Source: Spirochaetota bacterium (GTDB lineage: Bacteria; Spirochaetota; JAAYUW01; JAOAHJ01). From it: a stretch of 37,502 nucleotides of DNA. The notes beneath the pieces were generated by a model. The model worked only from the letters and a program-made list of their open reading frames with translations. It did no database searches and was not told the DNA's origin. Positions within the stretch are counted from its first letter, which is position 1. Every line of letters begins with the position of its first letter. Positions 28,137 to 33,755 of the stretch are shown here, in pieces. The stretch covers positions 1-37,502 of the forward strand of contig JAOAHJ010000037.1 of NCBI GenBank assembly GCA_026415295.1, written 5' to 3'. The position numbers and the translations under genes are program-made.

Positions 28137-30314
28137 ATGAATAAAAGTTATAAAACTCTCTTTTTTATAAAATTATTACTGTTAAGTTTATTTTTATCTT
28201 TAGTTATTTTATTATCAATTTTTTTATATTTTTATAAAACATGGCAAAAAGATAAATTTGATATTTATTATCAAATTAAATCTTTAAATGGTGCTATTAG
28301 AACTTATGATAAAAAGTATTTTAGAGTTCTTGAAATAAATATTTATGATAGAAATAATAGACTTATTTCAAATTTAAAGAAAAATCAATACAATTATGTG
28401 CAATTAAATTATTATCCTTCATTTTTAATTGATATTATTTTAATTAAAGAAGATAAAGAATTTTTTTTACATAAAGGGTATGACTTAAAAAGAATTATTG
28501 TTTCTTTTTTTAAGAATATTTTAGAAGGTAAAATATTATATGGTGGTTCAACTATAACACAACAAATATCAAAATTACTTTTTACCGACAGAAGAAAAAC
28601 AATAAAAAGGAAAATTTATGAGTTATTTACTTCTTATTACATTGAAAATGTATTATCAAAAGAAGATATTCTTGAAATTTACTTAAATATTGTATATTTA
28701 GGTTTTGGAAGGTATGGTTTTGAATCTGGAAGCTTGTTTTATTTTAATAAACATGTTTGGGAATTAAATTTTTCTGAATCATTATTGCTTGTTTCTATTA
28801 TTTCATCTCCTGAATATTTTTCTCCAATTAGAAATTTAGACTTATCAAAGAAAAAATATAAAACTCTTCTTAGAAAATGTGTAGAAAATAATTTAATAGA
28901 TAAAGATAAAGAAGAAAGAATATTTGAAGAGTTTTGGGCTCAGTTTAATATTAATAAAGTTTTTAGAGATATAAATATAATAGATTACGATTATGCGCCT
29001 TGGGTTACAGATTTAGTTATAAAAGAAATAGATAAAATGTTTACACTTGAGGAAGCATATTTAAATAACTTCAATATATATACTACTTTTGATTTAAACT
29101 GCATATTGTCATTAAATAAAAGTTTTTCAAAATTTTTTAATGATAAGAGACTTTTTTTTGAAAAAATGGATAGTAATGATTTTAATAATATTGAAATAGC
29201 AGTAATTTCAATTAATCCAGAAACTTTTGAAATTGTTTCAATTTGTGGGGGAAAAAGATATTCAGAAATAAATCAGTATAATAGAGCAATTTTTTCACTT
29301 AGACAACCGGGATCTTCGTTTAAACCATTATTTTTTTTGTATTGCTTTTTGAAAAAAATATTGACTACTATCACAATATTAGAGGATAAAGAATATTCAT
29401 TTAAATTAGATAGTAATATTATTTGGGAACCTAAAAACTATGGAGATAAATACTATGGTAATGTACCAATATATTTTGCTATTAAAAAATCTATAAATTC
29501 TATACCTGCTAAAATAGCAACAGAGATAGATTTAAATGATTTTTTAAATTTTATAAAAATTATATTTGGTCATGTTAGAAATGATTTTGAAAAAAGATTT
29601 AAACCATATCCTTCTATAGTATTAGGTTCTATTGAAATGTCTTTGCTTGAATTAGTGGTTTCTTATGCAACAATTGCAAGTGGAGGCTTTAAAATAAAGC
29701 CTTATTTTATCAAGAAAATAGAATCTTTTGGTGAGGTGATCTATGAAGTTAAAAAAGTAGAAAAAGAAAAAATAATAGATAAAAGATATGCAGATATGAT
29801 ATTGTACTTGTTAAAGTTTCCTTTAGAAAAAGGAGGAACTGCATATAATGCTAGAAATTTAGCAAATTTTTTTTATCAAACTTTTGGTAAAACTGGGACT
29901 ACAAATGATGGCAGAGATAGTTGGTTTATTGGAGTTACTGGTAATCTTGTTACAGGAGTATGGGTTGGATATGAAAAAGGTGGGGGCAATACTTATTTGA
30001 CAGGAGGTGAATATGCAGCAAGACTATATTTTGAGTATATTAAAAATGTTTATCAATTTTTTTTAAAATATTATGATTTTTTAGATAGTGATTTGGTTTT
30101 TAAATATATAGATTTAAATAAAATAAATTTTTTTCTTGATGAATCAGATAAAGTTTTAATTCCCTTTGATAGAGATAATTATCCATATAATATTTTAGAA
30201 AAGATTGTAACTGACGATAATGTAAATTTAGAAAGTCTTTTAAAAAGTGAATTTAATCAAGATATAAATAGTAGTAGTAAAGATGTTGATCAAATTAGAA
30301 AAAATAAAAACTAA
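28137..30314 (+). CDS. Class A penicillin-binding protein (glycosyltransferase plus transpeptidase), PBP1A-like
   Basis: This enzyme polymerises and cross-links peptidoglycan in the periplasm. The 725-residue protein has one N-terminal membrane helix (about 10-33). The GT51 domain follows, with catalytic E105 in KEDKEFFLHKGYD, then YGGSTITQQISKLLF and LSKEDILEIYLNIVYLGFGRYG. The penicillin-binding domain has S393 in RQPGSSFKP (S-x-x-K), S452-I-N454, and K585-T-G-T in GKTGTTNDGRDSW. The C-terminal tail is Asp/Ser/Asn-rich. The lipoprotein gene downstream overlaps it by 32 bases. Only a weak ribosome-binding site is seen. Confidence 0.96.
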   Translation: MNKSYKTLFFIKLLLLSLFLSLVILLSIFLYFYKTWQKDKFDIYYQIKSLNGAIRTYDKKYFRVLEINIYDRNNRLISNLKKNQYNYVQLNYYPSFLIDIILIKEDKEFFLHKGYDLKRIIVSFFKNILEGKILYGGSTITQQISKLLFTDRRKTIKRKIYELFTSYYIENVLSKEDILEIYLNIVYLGFGRYGFESGSLFYFNKHVWELNFSESLLLVSIISSPEYFSPIRNLDLSKKKYKTLLRKCVENNLIDKDKEERIFEEFWAQFNINKVFRDINIIDYDYAPWVTDLVIKEIDKMFTLEEAYLNNFNIYTTFDLNCILSLNKSFSKFFNDKRLFFEKMDSNDFNNIEIAVISINPETFEIVSICGGKRYSEINQYNRAIFSLRQPGSSFKPLFFLYCFLKKILTTITILEDKEYSFKLDSNIIWEPKNYGDKYYGNVPIYFAIKKSINSIPAKIATEIDLNDFLNFIKIIFGHVRNDFEKRFKPYPSIVLGSIEMSLLELVVSYATIASGGFKIKPYFIKKIESFGEVIYEVKKVEKEKIIDKRYADMILYLLKFPLEKGGTAYNARNLANFFYQTFGKTGTTNDGRDSWFIGVTGNLVTGVWVGYEKGGGNTYLTGGEYAARLYFEYIKNVYQFFLKYYDFLDSDLVFKYIDLNKINFFLDESDKVLIPFDRDNYPYNILEKIVTDDNVNLESLLKSEFNQDINSSSKDVDQIRKNKN

Positions 30315-31494
30315 AACTATTTTAACTATTATTTTTTTCCTAATTGTAGTTCCGTTAAATGTTTCTTGCTTAAAAATAGAAAACAATAAGATAAATAAGA
30401 AATTTATTGATTATTTTTCTTATAAAAAATATATATCTATTAATAAAGTTGGGATTGAAATAGAACCAAATGATAATTTTAATATCAGTAATGAAATAAT
30501 TAATTTTAATAATGTATATGGACTAATAGATGATTCTAAAGATATTGATGTTTTTTCAATAAGAAATGATTCTCAAGATAATATTAAAAAAATTAATATA
30601 ATATTAAATGATGCAGGTATTAAACAACTTTATGTTGAAGTTTATGATACTGATAAAAATTTAATCTTAAAAGAAAAACAAAACAAAAATATTTATATAA
30701 ATATTTATCCAGGTGAAAAGATTTACATAAAAATTTATAGAAATGATGATAATACTGATGATAGTTCTAATAAATTTTATGAATTTTCATATAATTTAAT
30801 TTTTATTAGTAACTATAAAAATGAATTTGTTGAAATTGAACCAAATAATAAAGTAGAAAAAGCAAATAATATTATATTAAATAATATTTATAAAGGCTAT
30901 TCTAATAATAAAGATTTAGATTATTTTACTTTTGATTTTGAAAAAGCAAAATTCTTAAATATAAGTTTTAAAATATTAGATGGTTATGGGAATATTGAAA
31001 TTAGTGATGAGAATGGAAATGTATTATTTAAAAAAGAAAATATTAAATATGGTGGAAATATTTTTCCTATTCTTTTTGAAAAGGGAAAATATTATATAAA
31101 AATTTTTGGAAGTTTATTGAATTATGAGTTGTCATTAAATGATTCATATTTTACAGGGGAGATTGAATTCAATGATAGTTATGAAGTTGCAAATCAAATA
31201 ATAAATAATTCTAAAATAATTGGAGCTTTAAGTTTTGAAAATGATATTGATATTTTTTACTTTAGTAATTTGATAGATAATAAAGAAATAGTTTTTGAGA
31301 TTGAAATAGATGGCGATTCTTTTATAGATATTTTAATATTGGATTGGGAATATAATGTTATTTTTAAAGAAAAAATAAAAGAACAAAAACTATTTATAAA
31401 ATTAAACTTGAATAAAGGAATTTATTTTATAAAATTAATAAAAGGCAATATTTTATCTGAAATTTTTTATAACATTAAGGTTTATTATAAATGA
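30283..31494 (+). CDS. Lipoprotein with three PPC-like beta-sandwich repeats
   Basis: The 403-residue protein has a lipoprotein signal peptide ending in the lipobox NVSC (Cys29). Three repeats follow, each starting with a Glu-x-Glu-Pro/Phe-Asn motif and containing Asp-x-Asp-x-Phe: EIEPNDN at about 59 with DIDVFSI, EIEPNNK at about 185 with DLDYFTF, and EIEFNDS at about 293 with DIDIFYF. This is the pattern of bacterial pre-peptidase C-terminal (PPC) domains, here without any peptidase. It overlaps the PBP gene by 32 bases and the next gene by 4 (ATGA), so all three are likely translated together. The role is unknown; binding of protein or glycan is plausible. Confidence 0.8.
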   Translation: MLIKLEKIKTKTILTIIFFLIVVPLNVSCLKIENNKINKKFIDYFSYKKYISINKVGIEIEPNDNFNISNEIINFNNVYGLIDDSKDIDVFSIRNDSQDNIKKINIILNDAGIKQLYVEVYDTDKNLILKEKQNKNIYINIYPGEKIYIKIYRNDDNTDDSSNKFYEFSYNLIFISNYKNEFVEIEPNNKVEKANNIILNNIYKGYSNNKDLDYFTFDFEKAKFLNISFKILDGYGNIEISDENGNVLFKKENIKYGGNIFPILFEKGKYYIKIFGSLLNYELSLNDSYFTGEIEFNDSYEVANQIINNSKIIGALSFENDIDIFYFSNLIDNKEIVFEIEIDGDSFIDILILDWEYNVIFKEKIKEQKLFIKLNLNKGIYFIKLIKGNILSEIFYNIKVYYK

Positions 31495-33014
31495 TTTATT
31501 TTTTAGTTGTTTTTATATTATTCTTTCTAGGGTGTGGTTTCTATTTGCTTTTTATAAGAAATTTACCATTTGAAAAGCAATTAGAAAGTCTAGCTAAAAC
31601 TTCAAATTTTGCAAAAATTATAGAACTTATTAATAAAAATAAAGTTTATTTAGAAAGATCAGATGCTGCAAGATATTATTATTCCAAAGCATTATTTGTT
31701 TATGAACATTATAAAGATTGTATAATGAATCTTACTCCTGTATTTAAATCGGGTAAAGCTGATTCCTATCCATTTTATAAAGATCTATTATGGATATTGG
31801 GTTTTTCAAATTATTATTTGGGATCCTTAAAGGATGCTTTATATTATTTAATAAAACTTCTTAGAGAAGATCCTCTTAATAAAGGTGCTTTAATGTATTG
31901 TGCTAAAATATATGCTGGGGCAGGGGAATATAGAAAAGCTCTTTTTTATTATAACGAACTAAAAAAAATTGATAAAAAAAATAGTCAAATATATTATGAA
32001 ATATCTTTATGTTATTTTTTATTGAGTGAATATACAGAAGCATATGAAGCTATAAAAATAGCCCTTGAACTTGAAGAAAATAATTTGATTTATATCTTTA
32101 CTTTAGGTGTTATTTTATTTTTAAAAGGTAATTTTGATAAGGCTTTAAAAGTATTTCTTGAGCTTGTTAAAAAAGAAAACCTTCCAAAAGAGTTGCTAGC
32201 TGAATCATATAGAATAATAGGAAATATATATCAAAAATTTGATAATTTCAAATTTGCTATAAATTATTATGAAGAATTTATTAAATATAGAAATTTTTCA
32301 CAAATTGAATATTTAAAAGATGTATTGTATAATATAGCTTTTGCTTATTATAAGGATAATGATTTAAGCAATGGTGAAAGATGTTTTAAAATATTATTTA
32401 ATATGGATAAAGATTATAAAGATATTAATGACATAATACTTAAACTTGATTCAATCAAAACTGACTCAAATTTTATTCAAGCTTTAAGTAATTGGTCAAA
32501 CATGATTGAAATTAAATTTCCTATTAAATTAATTGAAAGTAATATCTTAATAAGTAAAAATATCGATCTTTCTGATATAGAAGATGAACTAGGGTTAAGC
32601 AAAACAAAAACTGGTTTTACATATAGTTTCGAACAATATAAAGAAGAAAAATATCAAAATTGGATTTTAATAAATCAATCAATTTTGAAAAATCTTGGTT
32701 TTGAAGAGATCAAAATATATAGGGATCCACTCGATCCTGATAAAGATAGCGGAGTTGGAATTTATTTTATTGGGAATAAAAAAGTTGGATCCAATGTTGA
32801 TAAGTATTTAGTAAAGTTTTTTAGAGGTAAAACTTTTTCTGAACAAATAATAGAAAATTGTTTAGATTTGATTGAAAAGTTAAATTTAACTAAAATTGCT
32901 ATTTTTTACACTGGAACTTTTGATATGAGTTTATTGAATAAATTTGCAGGGAATAAAAATATTATTTTTTTCAATAAAAATGCTATTAAAGATATATTAT
33001 CTAAATTAAAATAA
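31491..33014 (+). CDS. Membrane-anchored TPR protein with a degenerate Mrr/restriction-endonuclease-like C-terminal domain
   Basis: The 507-residue protein has one N-terminal membrane helix (about 2-22). TPR-like pairs occupy about 60-320, for example LKDALYYLIKLLREDPLNKGALMYCAKIY and EYRKALFYYNELKK. The C-terminal domain (about 390-507) has GFEEIKIYRDP, DKDSGVGIYFIG, DKYLVKFFRGK, then IAIFYTGTFDMSLLNKFAGNKNIIFFNK. This order resembles Mrr-type PD-(D/E)xK folds, but the GVD Asp reads Gly and the QxK reads VKF, so nuclease activity looks lost. The start overlaps the upstream stop as ATGA. The domain assignment is inference. Confidence 0.75.
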   Translation: MIYFLVVFILFFLGCGFYLLFIRNLPFEKQLESLAKTSNFAKIIELINKNKVYLERSDAARYYYSKALFVYEHYKDCIMNLTPVFKSGKADSYPFYKDLLWILGFSNYYLGSLKDALYYLIKLLREDPLNKGALMYCAKIYAGAGEYRKALFYYNELKKIDKKNSQIYYEISLCYFLLSEYTEAYEAIKIALELEENNLIYIFTLGVILFLKGNFDKALKVFLELVKKENLPKELLAESYRIIGNIYQKFDNFKFAINYYEEFIKYRNFSQIEYLKDVLYNIAFAYYKDNDLSNGERCFKILFNMDKDYKDINDIILKLDSIKTDSNFIQALSNWSNMIEIKFPIKLIESNILISKNIDLSDIEDELGLSKTKTGFTYSFEQYKEEKYQNWILINQSILKNLGFEEIKIYRDPLDPDKDSGVGIYFIGNKKVGSNVDKYLVKFFRGKTFSEQIIENCLDLIEKLNLTKIAIFYTGTFDMSLLNKFAGNKNIIFFNKNAIKDILSKLK

Positions 33015-33047
33015 ATTTTGATTAAAACTAAAAATTATTTATATATT

Positions 33048-33755
33048 ATGGAAAGAAATGAGAATAAAAAATCTAGAGCACTTTTTTTTCTTAATGGTTA
33101 TTATGGTAATTTAAAATTAGATATAAGTAAGATTAAAAATGATGATGTTTTAATTGGTGTTGATGGAGGATTAAATTTTCTTTTTGAGAATGGACTTCAA
33201 AATAGAATTGATTATGCTATAGGAGATTTTGATTCTTTTAATAATCCACATAAATATTTTCCGGAAAATAAAATTATTAAATTTGAAAAGGAGAAAGATT
33301 ATACAGATACTCTTGGTGCTTTTTTTTATATTAAAAATCATTATAATAAAAAGATAAAAGAATACCATTTTTATGGAGTTTCAGGAAAAAGGGAGGATCA
33401 TTTTTTGTCTCTTATATATTCCTTTTATAGTTTTAATGATTTAATTTTTTTTCATTCTCTATATGAAGATTTTCTTCTTTTAAAGAAGGGAAAATATAGA
33501 ATCAATATTGGTAAAGGGAGTCTTTTTTCAGTCTTCCCATTAAAAAGAGTTAAAAATTTAAGTTTAATAAATACAAAGTATTCATTTAAAAAAAAATATA
33601 TTAATTTAACTGGTATGGGTGTATCAAATGAAACAACAGATGATGAAATAGTTATAGAATTTGAAGAAGGTATTTTATTAATTAGTATTTTGAAAAACTA
33701 TGAAGAAATTAAAGAAATTTTAATTAATAATAACTTTTTAATAGAAAAGGAATAA
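33048..33755 (+). CDS. thiN: Thiamine pyrophosphokinase
   Basis: It transfers pyrophosphate from ATP to thiamine, giving the cofactor thiamine diphosphate, in the cytoplasm. Signatures are IGVDGGLNFLFENG, YAIGDFDSFNNP, KEKDYTDTLGAFFYI and GVSGKREDHFLSLIY; the C-terminal half has the beta-rich thiamine-binding domain. I start it at the ATG at 33048 (235 residues), which fits the family's opening hydrophobic strand; the frame stays open to a TTG at 33018. Neither has a good ribosome-binding site. No thiamine riboswitch-like element is visible upstream. Confidence 0.92.
   Translation: MERNENKKSRALFFLNGYYGNLKLDISKIKNDDVLIGVDGGLNFLFENGLQNRIDYAIGDFDSFNNPHKYFPENKIIKFEKEKDYTDTLGAFFYIKNHYNKKIKEYHFYGVSGKREDHFLSLIYSFYSFNDLIFFHSLYEDFLLLKKGKYRINIGKGSLFSVFPLKRVKNLSLINTKYSFKKKYINLTGMGVSNETTDDEIVIEFEEGILLISILKNYEEIKEILINNNFLIEKE

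Follow-up and report, generated by a model that had tools for sequence, protein, structure and literature searches.

What could a membrane-anchored TPR protein do with a C-terminal domain that resembles a restriction endonuclease of the Mrr type, and what does it mean that its gene is joined to that of a peptidoglycan synthase? These questions are raised by an open reading frame on the + strand (31491..33014, ATG start, 507 aa) of a 37,502-nucleotide stretch of spirochaete DNA, hereafter the window, which belongs to a genome (G000) of 2.1 Mb in 39 contigs. A preliminary description of the locus had seen in this protein an apparently dead nuclease fold joined to a membrane helix and TPRs, and had considered it an unusual scaffold and a possible sensor of DNA or of a ligand in the envelope.

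Gene unit and domain organisation

In the clade to which the window belongs, the gene is the third of a unit formed by a PBP1A gene, a PPC-type lipoprotein gene and the TPR/pseudo-Mrr gene. In the window, where all genes discussed lie on the + strand, the first gene encodes a class A penicillin-binding protein (28137..30314; Transgly, E 1.2e-47; Transpeptidase, E 3.1e-18) and overlaps by 32 nt the lipoprotein gene (30283..31494), which in turn overlaps the TPR/pseudo-Mrr gene by 4 nt; the overlap with a PBP-linked lipoprotein was thus correctly described from the start. The lipoprotein is homologous to PPC-domain lipoproteins encoded beside relatives (E 1.2e-14 to the protein of locus L075, itself matching Pfam PPC with E 5.1e-16). 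The next gene encodes a thiamin pyrophosphokinase (33018..33755), a neighbour shared with genomes G001, G002 and G003, in which the order is PPC-type lipoprotein, TPR/pseudo-Mrr protein and thiamin pyrophosphokinase. These three genomes, the searched members of the window's order, hold full-length orthologues with 31-32 % identity, which together with the ORF call support the reading frame.

The protein begins with a membrane helix (residues 2-22, 31494..31556) followed by R23 and K29, for which the charges predict an N-out/C-in orientation. A TPR superhelix spans residues 27-338 (31569..32504), as indicated by Pfam (TPR_2, E 1.9e-17, plus other TPR models), by tandem TPR motifs, by the full-length model and by a structure match to consensus TPR (Z 22.9 for this part of the model). 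Beyond it lies a linker of low model confidence (residues 339-379, 32505..32627), with a NIDL..IE..LG motif that is invariant in the four sequences of what we call the window group, and then the predicted pseudo-Mrr domain (residues 380-507, 32628..33011), assigned from structure models, Foldseek and VIA searches and profile comparison. All motifs quoted earlier were found in their places: DSGVGIYF (residues 419-426, 32745..32768) occupies the position of the GxD motif with the Asp replaced, YLVKFFRGK (residues 439-447, 32805..32831) that of the replaced QxK, while IAIFYTGTFD and IIFFNK start at residues 469 and 491, respectively.

Fold of the C-terminal domain and its link to Mrr

The preliminary description had made the nuclease assignment depend on a predicted PD-(D/E)xK fold and on profile matches other than TPR. 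The predicted fold is indeed PD-(D/E)xK. A model of residues 339-507 built from four sequences (mean pLDDT 68.5, pTM 0.66, first 40 residues unreliable) runs helix-strand-strand-strand-helix-strand-helix-strand-helix and contains the alpha-beta-beta-beta-alpha-beta core of this superfamily (model H42-63, E66-74, E85-94, E97-106, H113-125, E130-135). The best PDB matches obtained with Foldseek were AspBHI (1.7e-4), an RPB5 chain (4.0e-4) and MspJI (5.2e-4). With VIA, where Z < 8 may reflect a common arrangement and the best four lie above that value, the matches were AspBHI (Z 9.6, rmsd 3.2, 122 aligned), AF1548 (Z 9.1, rmsd 3.2, 108 aligned), MspJI (Z 8.4, rmsd 3.4, 121 aligned) and RPB5 (Z about 8).

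The full-length model (mean pLDDT 79.4) reproduces this domain after helix 2-22, a TPR superhelix reaching to residue ~338 and a loose linker, in agreement with the architecture first proposed. TPR superhelices dominate the structure search with this model, and the absence of LapB among the best 50 matches listed is evidence in neither direction.

Profile searches of Pfam and protein families with the window protein alone gave TPR matches only, with no Mrr_cat (PF04471) at E up to 1; but its relatives carry Mrr_cat, and the question could therefore be resolved through them. Besides the close orthologues, we distinguished two sets, both found across the phylum: family A, made of more distant full-length relatives (510-530 aa), and family B, with shorter proteins (450-460 aa). 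Mrr_cat was detected in 7 of 11 family-A members scanned singly (best E 1.8e-16), the window protein giving none. The curated cut-off of 21 bits was exceeded in three of four family-A proteins (L027, 44.7; L024, 52.1; L042, 34.2 bits) and in five of six from family B (L021, 50.0; L039, 24.2; L038, 32.3; L016, 51.9; L044, 49.5), with L040 of family B slightly under it at 20.1 bits; the family-A protein L004, a member of the window group, had no Mrr_cat match at E up to 1.

Profile-profile comparison with hhalign, controlled by 40 column shuffles, connected the four-sequence window group to seven other family-A members (probability 90.4 %, score 43.6; shuffles at most 11.7 % and 25.0), to family B (85.6 %, 40.0; shuffles at most 0.9 % and 16.7) and to nine intact spirochaete Mrr proteins (43.8 %, 31.1; shuffles at most 1.2 % and 18.0). 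Family A without the window group reached 98.9 % against Mrr, and family B 98.2 %. Moreover, a family-B profile of 14 rows from which the window group was absent recovered the window domain in G000 (E 1.6e-6). PDB sequences searched with both family profiles gave nothing significant: the best match was a sperm flagellar protein (E 0.022 over 26 positions), and RPB5 was matched weakly by both (E 0.15 and 0.48). Overall, a PD-(D/E)xK/Mrr fold of the C-terminal domain is well supported by the models and by these profile links.

Active site, spread and gene context of the family

Intact spirochaete Mrr proteins read GG[IV]D ... QxK. To describe the corresponding positions, we took 30 family-A proteins, from 30 of the 54 genomes with strong matches (89 bits or more). 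The Asp of GxD is kept in 22 of them and the Lys of QxK in a single one (L105, which lacks the Asp), so that none combines the Asp with [QE]xK. The 22 proteins with the Asp are exactly those whose gene has a ParB_N-type neighbour; at the QxK position they show WxR and a further R directly after it. The window protein has GVG and KFF at the two sites, as its first reading had stated, and the next Arg (R445) is invariant in 11-row family alignments; in the window group, the basic K, R and K of the QxK strand are invariant. Loss of the canonical active site is well supported. Residues 380-507 of the window protein have a net charge of +4, a value that is uninformative as to DNA binding or other uses; true Mrr domains are similar.

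The architecture had been thought unusual as a single case, a view that its distribution does not sustain. The family-A profile matched 212 of 296 spirochaete genomes (54 strongly) and the family-B profile 265 of 296, counting any match at E <= 1e-3, cross-matches within the superfamily included. As spread was measured within Spirochaetota, spirochaete-wide does not mean spirochaete-only. Mrr_cat itself was present in 113 of 120 spirochaete genomes; among the matches listed, most lie in frames of ~445-590 aa, not in ~300-aa enzymes. G000 alone encodes five proteins in which this C-terminal domain follows a membrane anchor and TPRs (the window and contigs C30, C3, C17 and C4; loci L173-L176), plus a weak sixth match (E 0.0076).

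Family members also occur in reduced genomes of about 1.0-1.2 Mb. Two Borrelia-like genomes have one each; the member at L170:7664-9046, presumably BB0261, has bacA-like, M23-peptidase-like and signal-peptidase-like genes nearby, as recognised by eye. Two Mrr_cat matches in Borrelia-like genomes were set aside: one (L072:448-1881) is part of a fusion between a DNA methyltransferase and a Mrr-like domain that seems intact, and the other (L071) has no such ORF at the listed length. A Treponema-like genome of 1.14 Mb holds two members, one of which (L171:7838-9247) is TP0471 by coordinates and residue numbering, according to a table in PMC10013896; there, TP0471 is no more than a hypothetical protein with a TPR domain, and a D357N difference in it separates Nichols clones (PMC10013896). 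Counting residues, this position corresponds to the first pseudo-Mrr helix. Genome G107 carries three tandem TPR/pseudo-Mrr-like genes (L178:3538-8640), in a genus with several copies of ~540-590 aa. A MAG titled Brachyspira murdochii (L126, DYJT01000013.1) carries an Exilispira-type gene, and its label is probably wrong.

Two gene contexts recur among the 30 family-A loci. A ParB_N-type gene lies directly downstream in 22, whereas a PPC-type lipoprotein gene lies upstream in 7 (the window, G001, G002, G003, G004, G028 and G066). Wherever a longer stretch was read (4/4: the window, G002, G004 and G028), a PBP1A-type gene precedes the lipoprotein gene, with 31-43 % identity between the PBPs. 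A GAF-type gene is found downstream in 4 of the 30 loci (G004, G028, G066 and G093). A tree of 48 rows places all seven members with a lipoprotein gene in one group (support 94/77, which also includes the GAF-linked L105) and the 22 ParB-linked members in another; the Treponema- and Borrelia-like proteins share a third region with family B. Long branches and unusual composition, including those of the window, were flagged in this tree.

The family-A gene adjoins the ParB_N-type gene at, for example, L073:1821-4294, L182:11775-14338, L180, L181 and L183. Such clusters often also hold a family-B gene and genes for two further proteins: one that is STAS-like by eye, and one that weakly matches a cNMP-binding domain and has a GKTT stretch resembling a P-loop, again by eye. 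Directly upstream of the family-A gene, L076 (10131-11903) and L179 (7757-9484) encode a further, longer TPR protein; that of L076 has 590 aa and matches Mrr_cat with 42.6 bits.

No paper describing a TM-TPR-pseudo-Mrr family in spirochaetes was found in the open-licence literature. Automatic Mrr_cat and TPR annotation probably labels many members already, and the single elements are known; the inactivation pattern, the spread and the gene context appear to be undescribed.

Topology and possible function

In families A and B, the first helix starts at residue 1 or close to it, with Arg and Lys after it. The 15 residues after it contain more Lys and Arg than those before it in 46 of 47 rows, with equality in one; this count includes duplicates (the window is L097, and L025 is L080) and starts placed too far upstream in L099, L110, L111 and L038. 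Following the positive-inside rule, we therefore predict from sequence an outside N-terminus with TPRs and pseudo-nuclease in the cytoplasm. The envelope-facing location suggested at first is at odds with these charges, which make an envelope sensor less likely than a cytoplasm-facing, LapB-like adaptor.

The reading that we tentatively prefer, at a probability somewhat short of even, is that of a non-enzymatic membrane adaptor of the LapB/YciM kind, facing the cytoplasm and, in the window's lineage, coupled to the co-encoded peptidoglycan synthase. The single helix would leave the N-terminus outside and the TPRs and dead nuclease in the cytoplasm, where the superhelix could hold a partner at the membrane. 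The former nuclease domain, with its conserved basic strand (K.F.R.K in the window group), may bind either a polyanionic ligand or a second partner. In the window's lineage, the protein might then connect the synthase with a signal or substrate from the cytoplasm, the PBP1A unit being the likely client. Several points weigh against this adaptor. The PBP and the lipoprotein encoded with it belong to the periplasm, an awkward setting for TPRs that are predicted to be cytoplasmic; when the window group is compared directly with true Mrr profiles, the probability is no more than 44 %, and neither the window protein nor L004 has a Pfam Mrr match; the models are built on four sequences; and only 7 of the 30 loci examined show the link to the lipoprotein gene.

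The main rival, to which we give a modest chance, is a tether between membrane and nucleoid: the pseudo-nuclease would have retained DNA binding and would anchor the chromosome to the inner membrane, or sense its position there, with a ParB_N protein as partner in one clade. This possibility is favoured by the pairing with ParB_N in the sister clade (22/30), where the GVD and an RR pair are kept, and by the presence of RPB5, a polymerase subunit, among the closest folds. However, the ParB link is absent from the window's own clade, the seven lipoprotein-linked members have domains with a modest net charge (0 to 5), and PD-(D/E)xK folds serve protein binding too.

A periplasmic PBP1A cofactor, comparable in function to LpoA or CpoB and with TPRs on the outside, would account for the gene overlaps with PBP and lipoprotein, but we hold it improbable given the basic residues after the helix, with almost none before it, and given that other clades have no such partner. 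Retention of enzymatic activity through rearranged catalytic residues is more doubtful still: PD-(D/E)xK enzymes can relocate such residues and 22 of 30 relatives keep the GVD Asp, but the window protein has neither Asp nor Lys, and the one relative with the QxK Lys is without the Asp. We consider it very improbable that the protein is part of an anti-phage or conflict system, like the inactive REase domains joined to NACHT proteins. With E up to 1, NA-iREase1 (PF22722) matches five out of 11 relatives, below the curated cut-off where a score was shown, but not the window protein; against this, synteny is conserved, the family is present in most genomes of the phylum, and no defence genes were recognised among the neighbours inspected by eye.

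A component of the periplasmic flagellar collar, suggested by descriptions of FlcB as TPR plus a circular head domain (PMC8609358, PMC11750108), is scarcely credible in view of the predicted cytoplasmic location. A 25-base pattern derived from a published primer served to find FlcB (BB0058) in Borrelia-like genomes; the C-terminal part read, whose ORF runs past the stretch, is not Mrr-like by eye and looks unrelated. Five neighbours of family-B genes considered as FlcA all fell far below the NCBIfam FlcA cut-off, and the window protein scored 28.1 bits against FlcA_CTERM (cut-off 300).

If the adaptor reading is extended to the phylum, a restriction-enzyme fold would have given rise, throughout the spirochaetes, to a set of pseudo-nuclease adaptors anchored in the membrane and connecting the envelope with the nucleoid side: one clade with a ParB-type protein, the window's with a PBP1A synthase and lipoprotein, and others in syphilis- and Lyme-type spirochaetes. 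We regard this wider picture as speculative and rather unlikely as a whole. Reading the C-terminus as a dead nuclease would connect an inactive restriction-enzyme fold with the organisation of the envelope or the chromosome, not with defence, in a family with members in most spirochaete genomes searched, small ones included. It offers a testable second binding site for these TPR proteins, and the two conserved gene contexts (PBP with lipoprotein; ParB_N) name candidate partners.

Among known proteins, TP0471 of Treponema pallidum is a TM-TPR-pseudo-Mrr paralogue, although it groups with family B, outside the PBP-linked clade. NA-iREase1 (NACHT-associated inactive restriction endonuclease) shares an inactive REase fold with relatives of the window protein, whereas the window family has a conserved, housekeeping-like synteny. 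The N-terminal domain of RPB5 is close in fold, but belongs to a polymerase subunit with neither membrane anchor nor TPR. Mrr_cat has the same predicted fold, relatives above its curated cut-off and a profile link; the window family differs in lacking the canonical active site and in carrying a membrane helix and TPRs in front, while the intact Mrr proteins examined are mostly about 280-310 aa.

The nearest functional parallel may be LapB/YciM, which delivers LpxC to FtsH. According to PMC7157816, it is an inner-membrane protein whose cytoplasmic region consists of nine TPRs and a rubredoxin-like domain. NCBIfam LapB models score far below their cut-off on the window protein, and window residues 380-507 contain a single Cys. 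The two proteins would share an inner-membrane anchor, TPRs that are cytoplasmic in LapB (PMC7157816) and predicted from charges to be so here, and a small C-terminal domain, which is rubredoxin-like in LapB and PD-(D/E)xK-like in the window protein.
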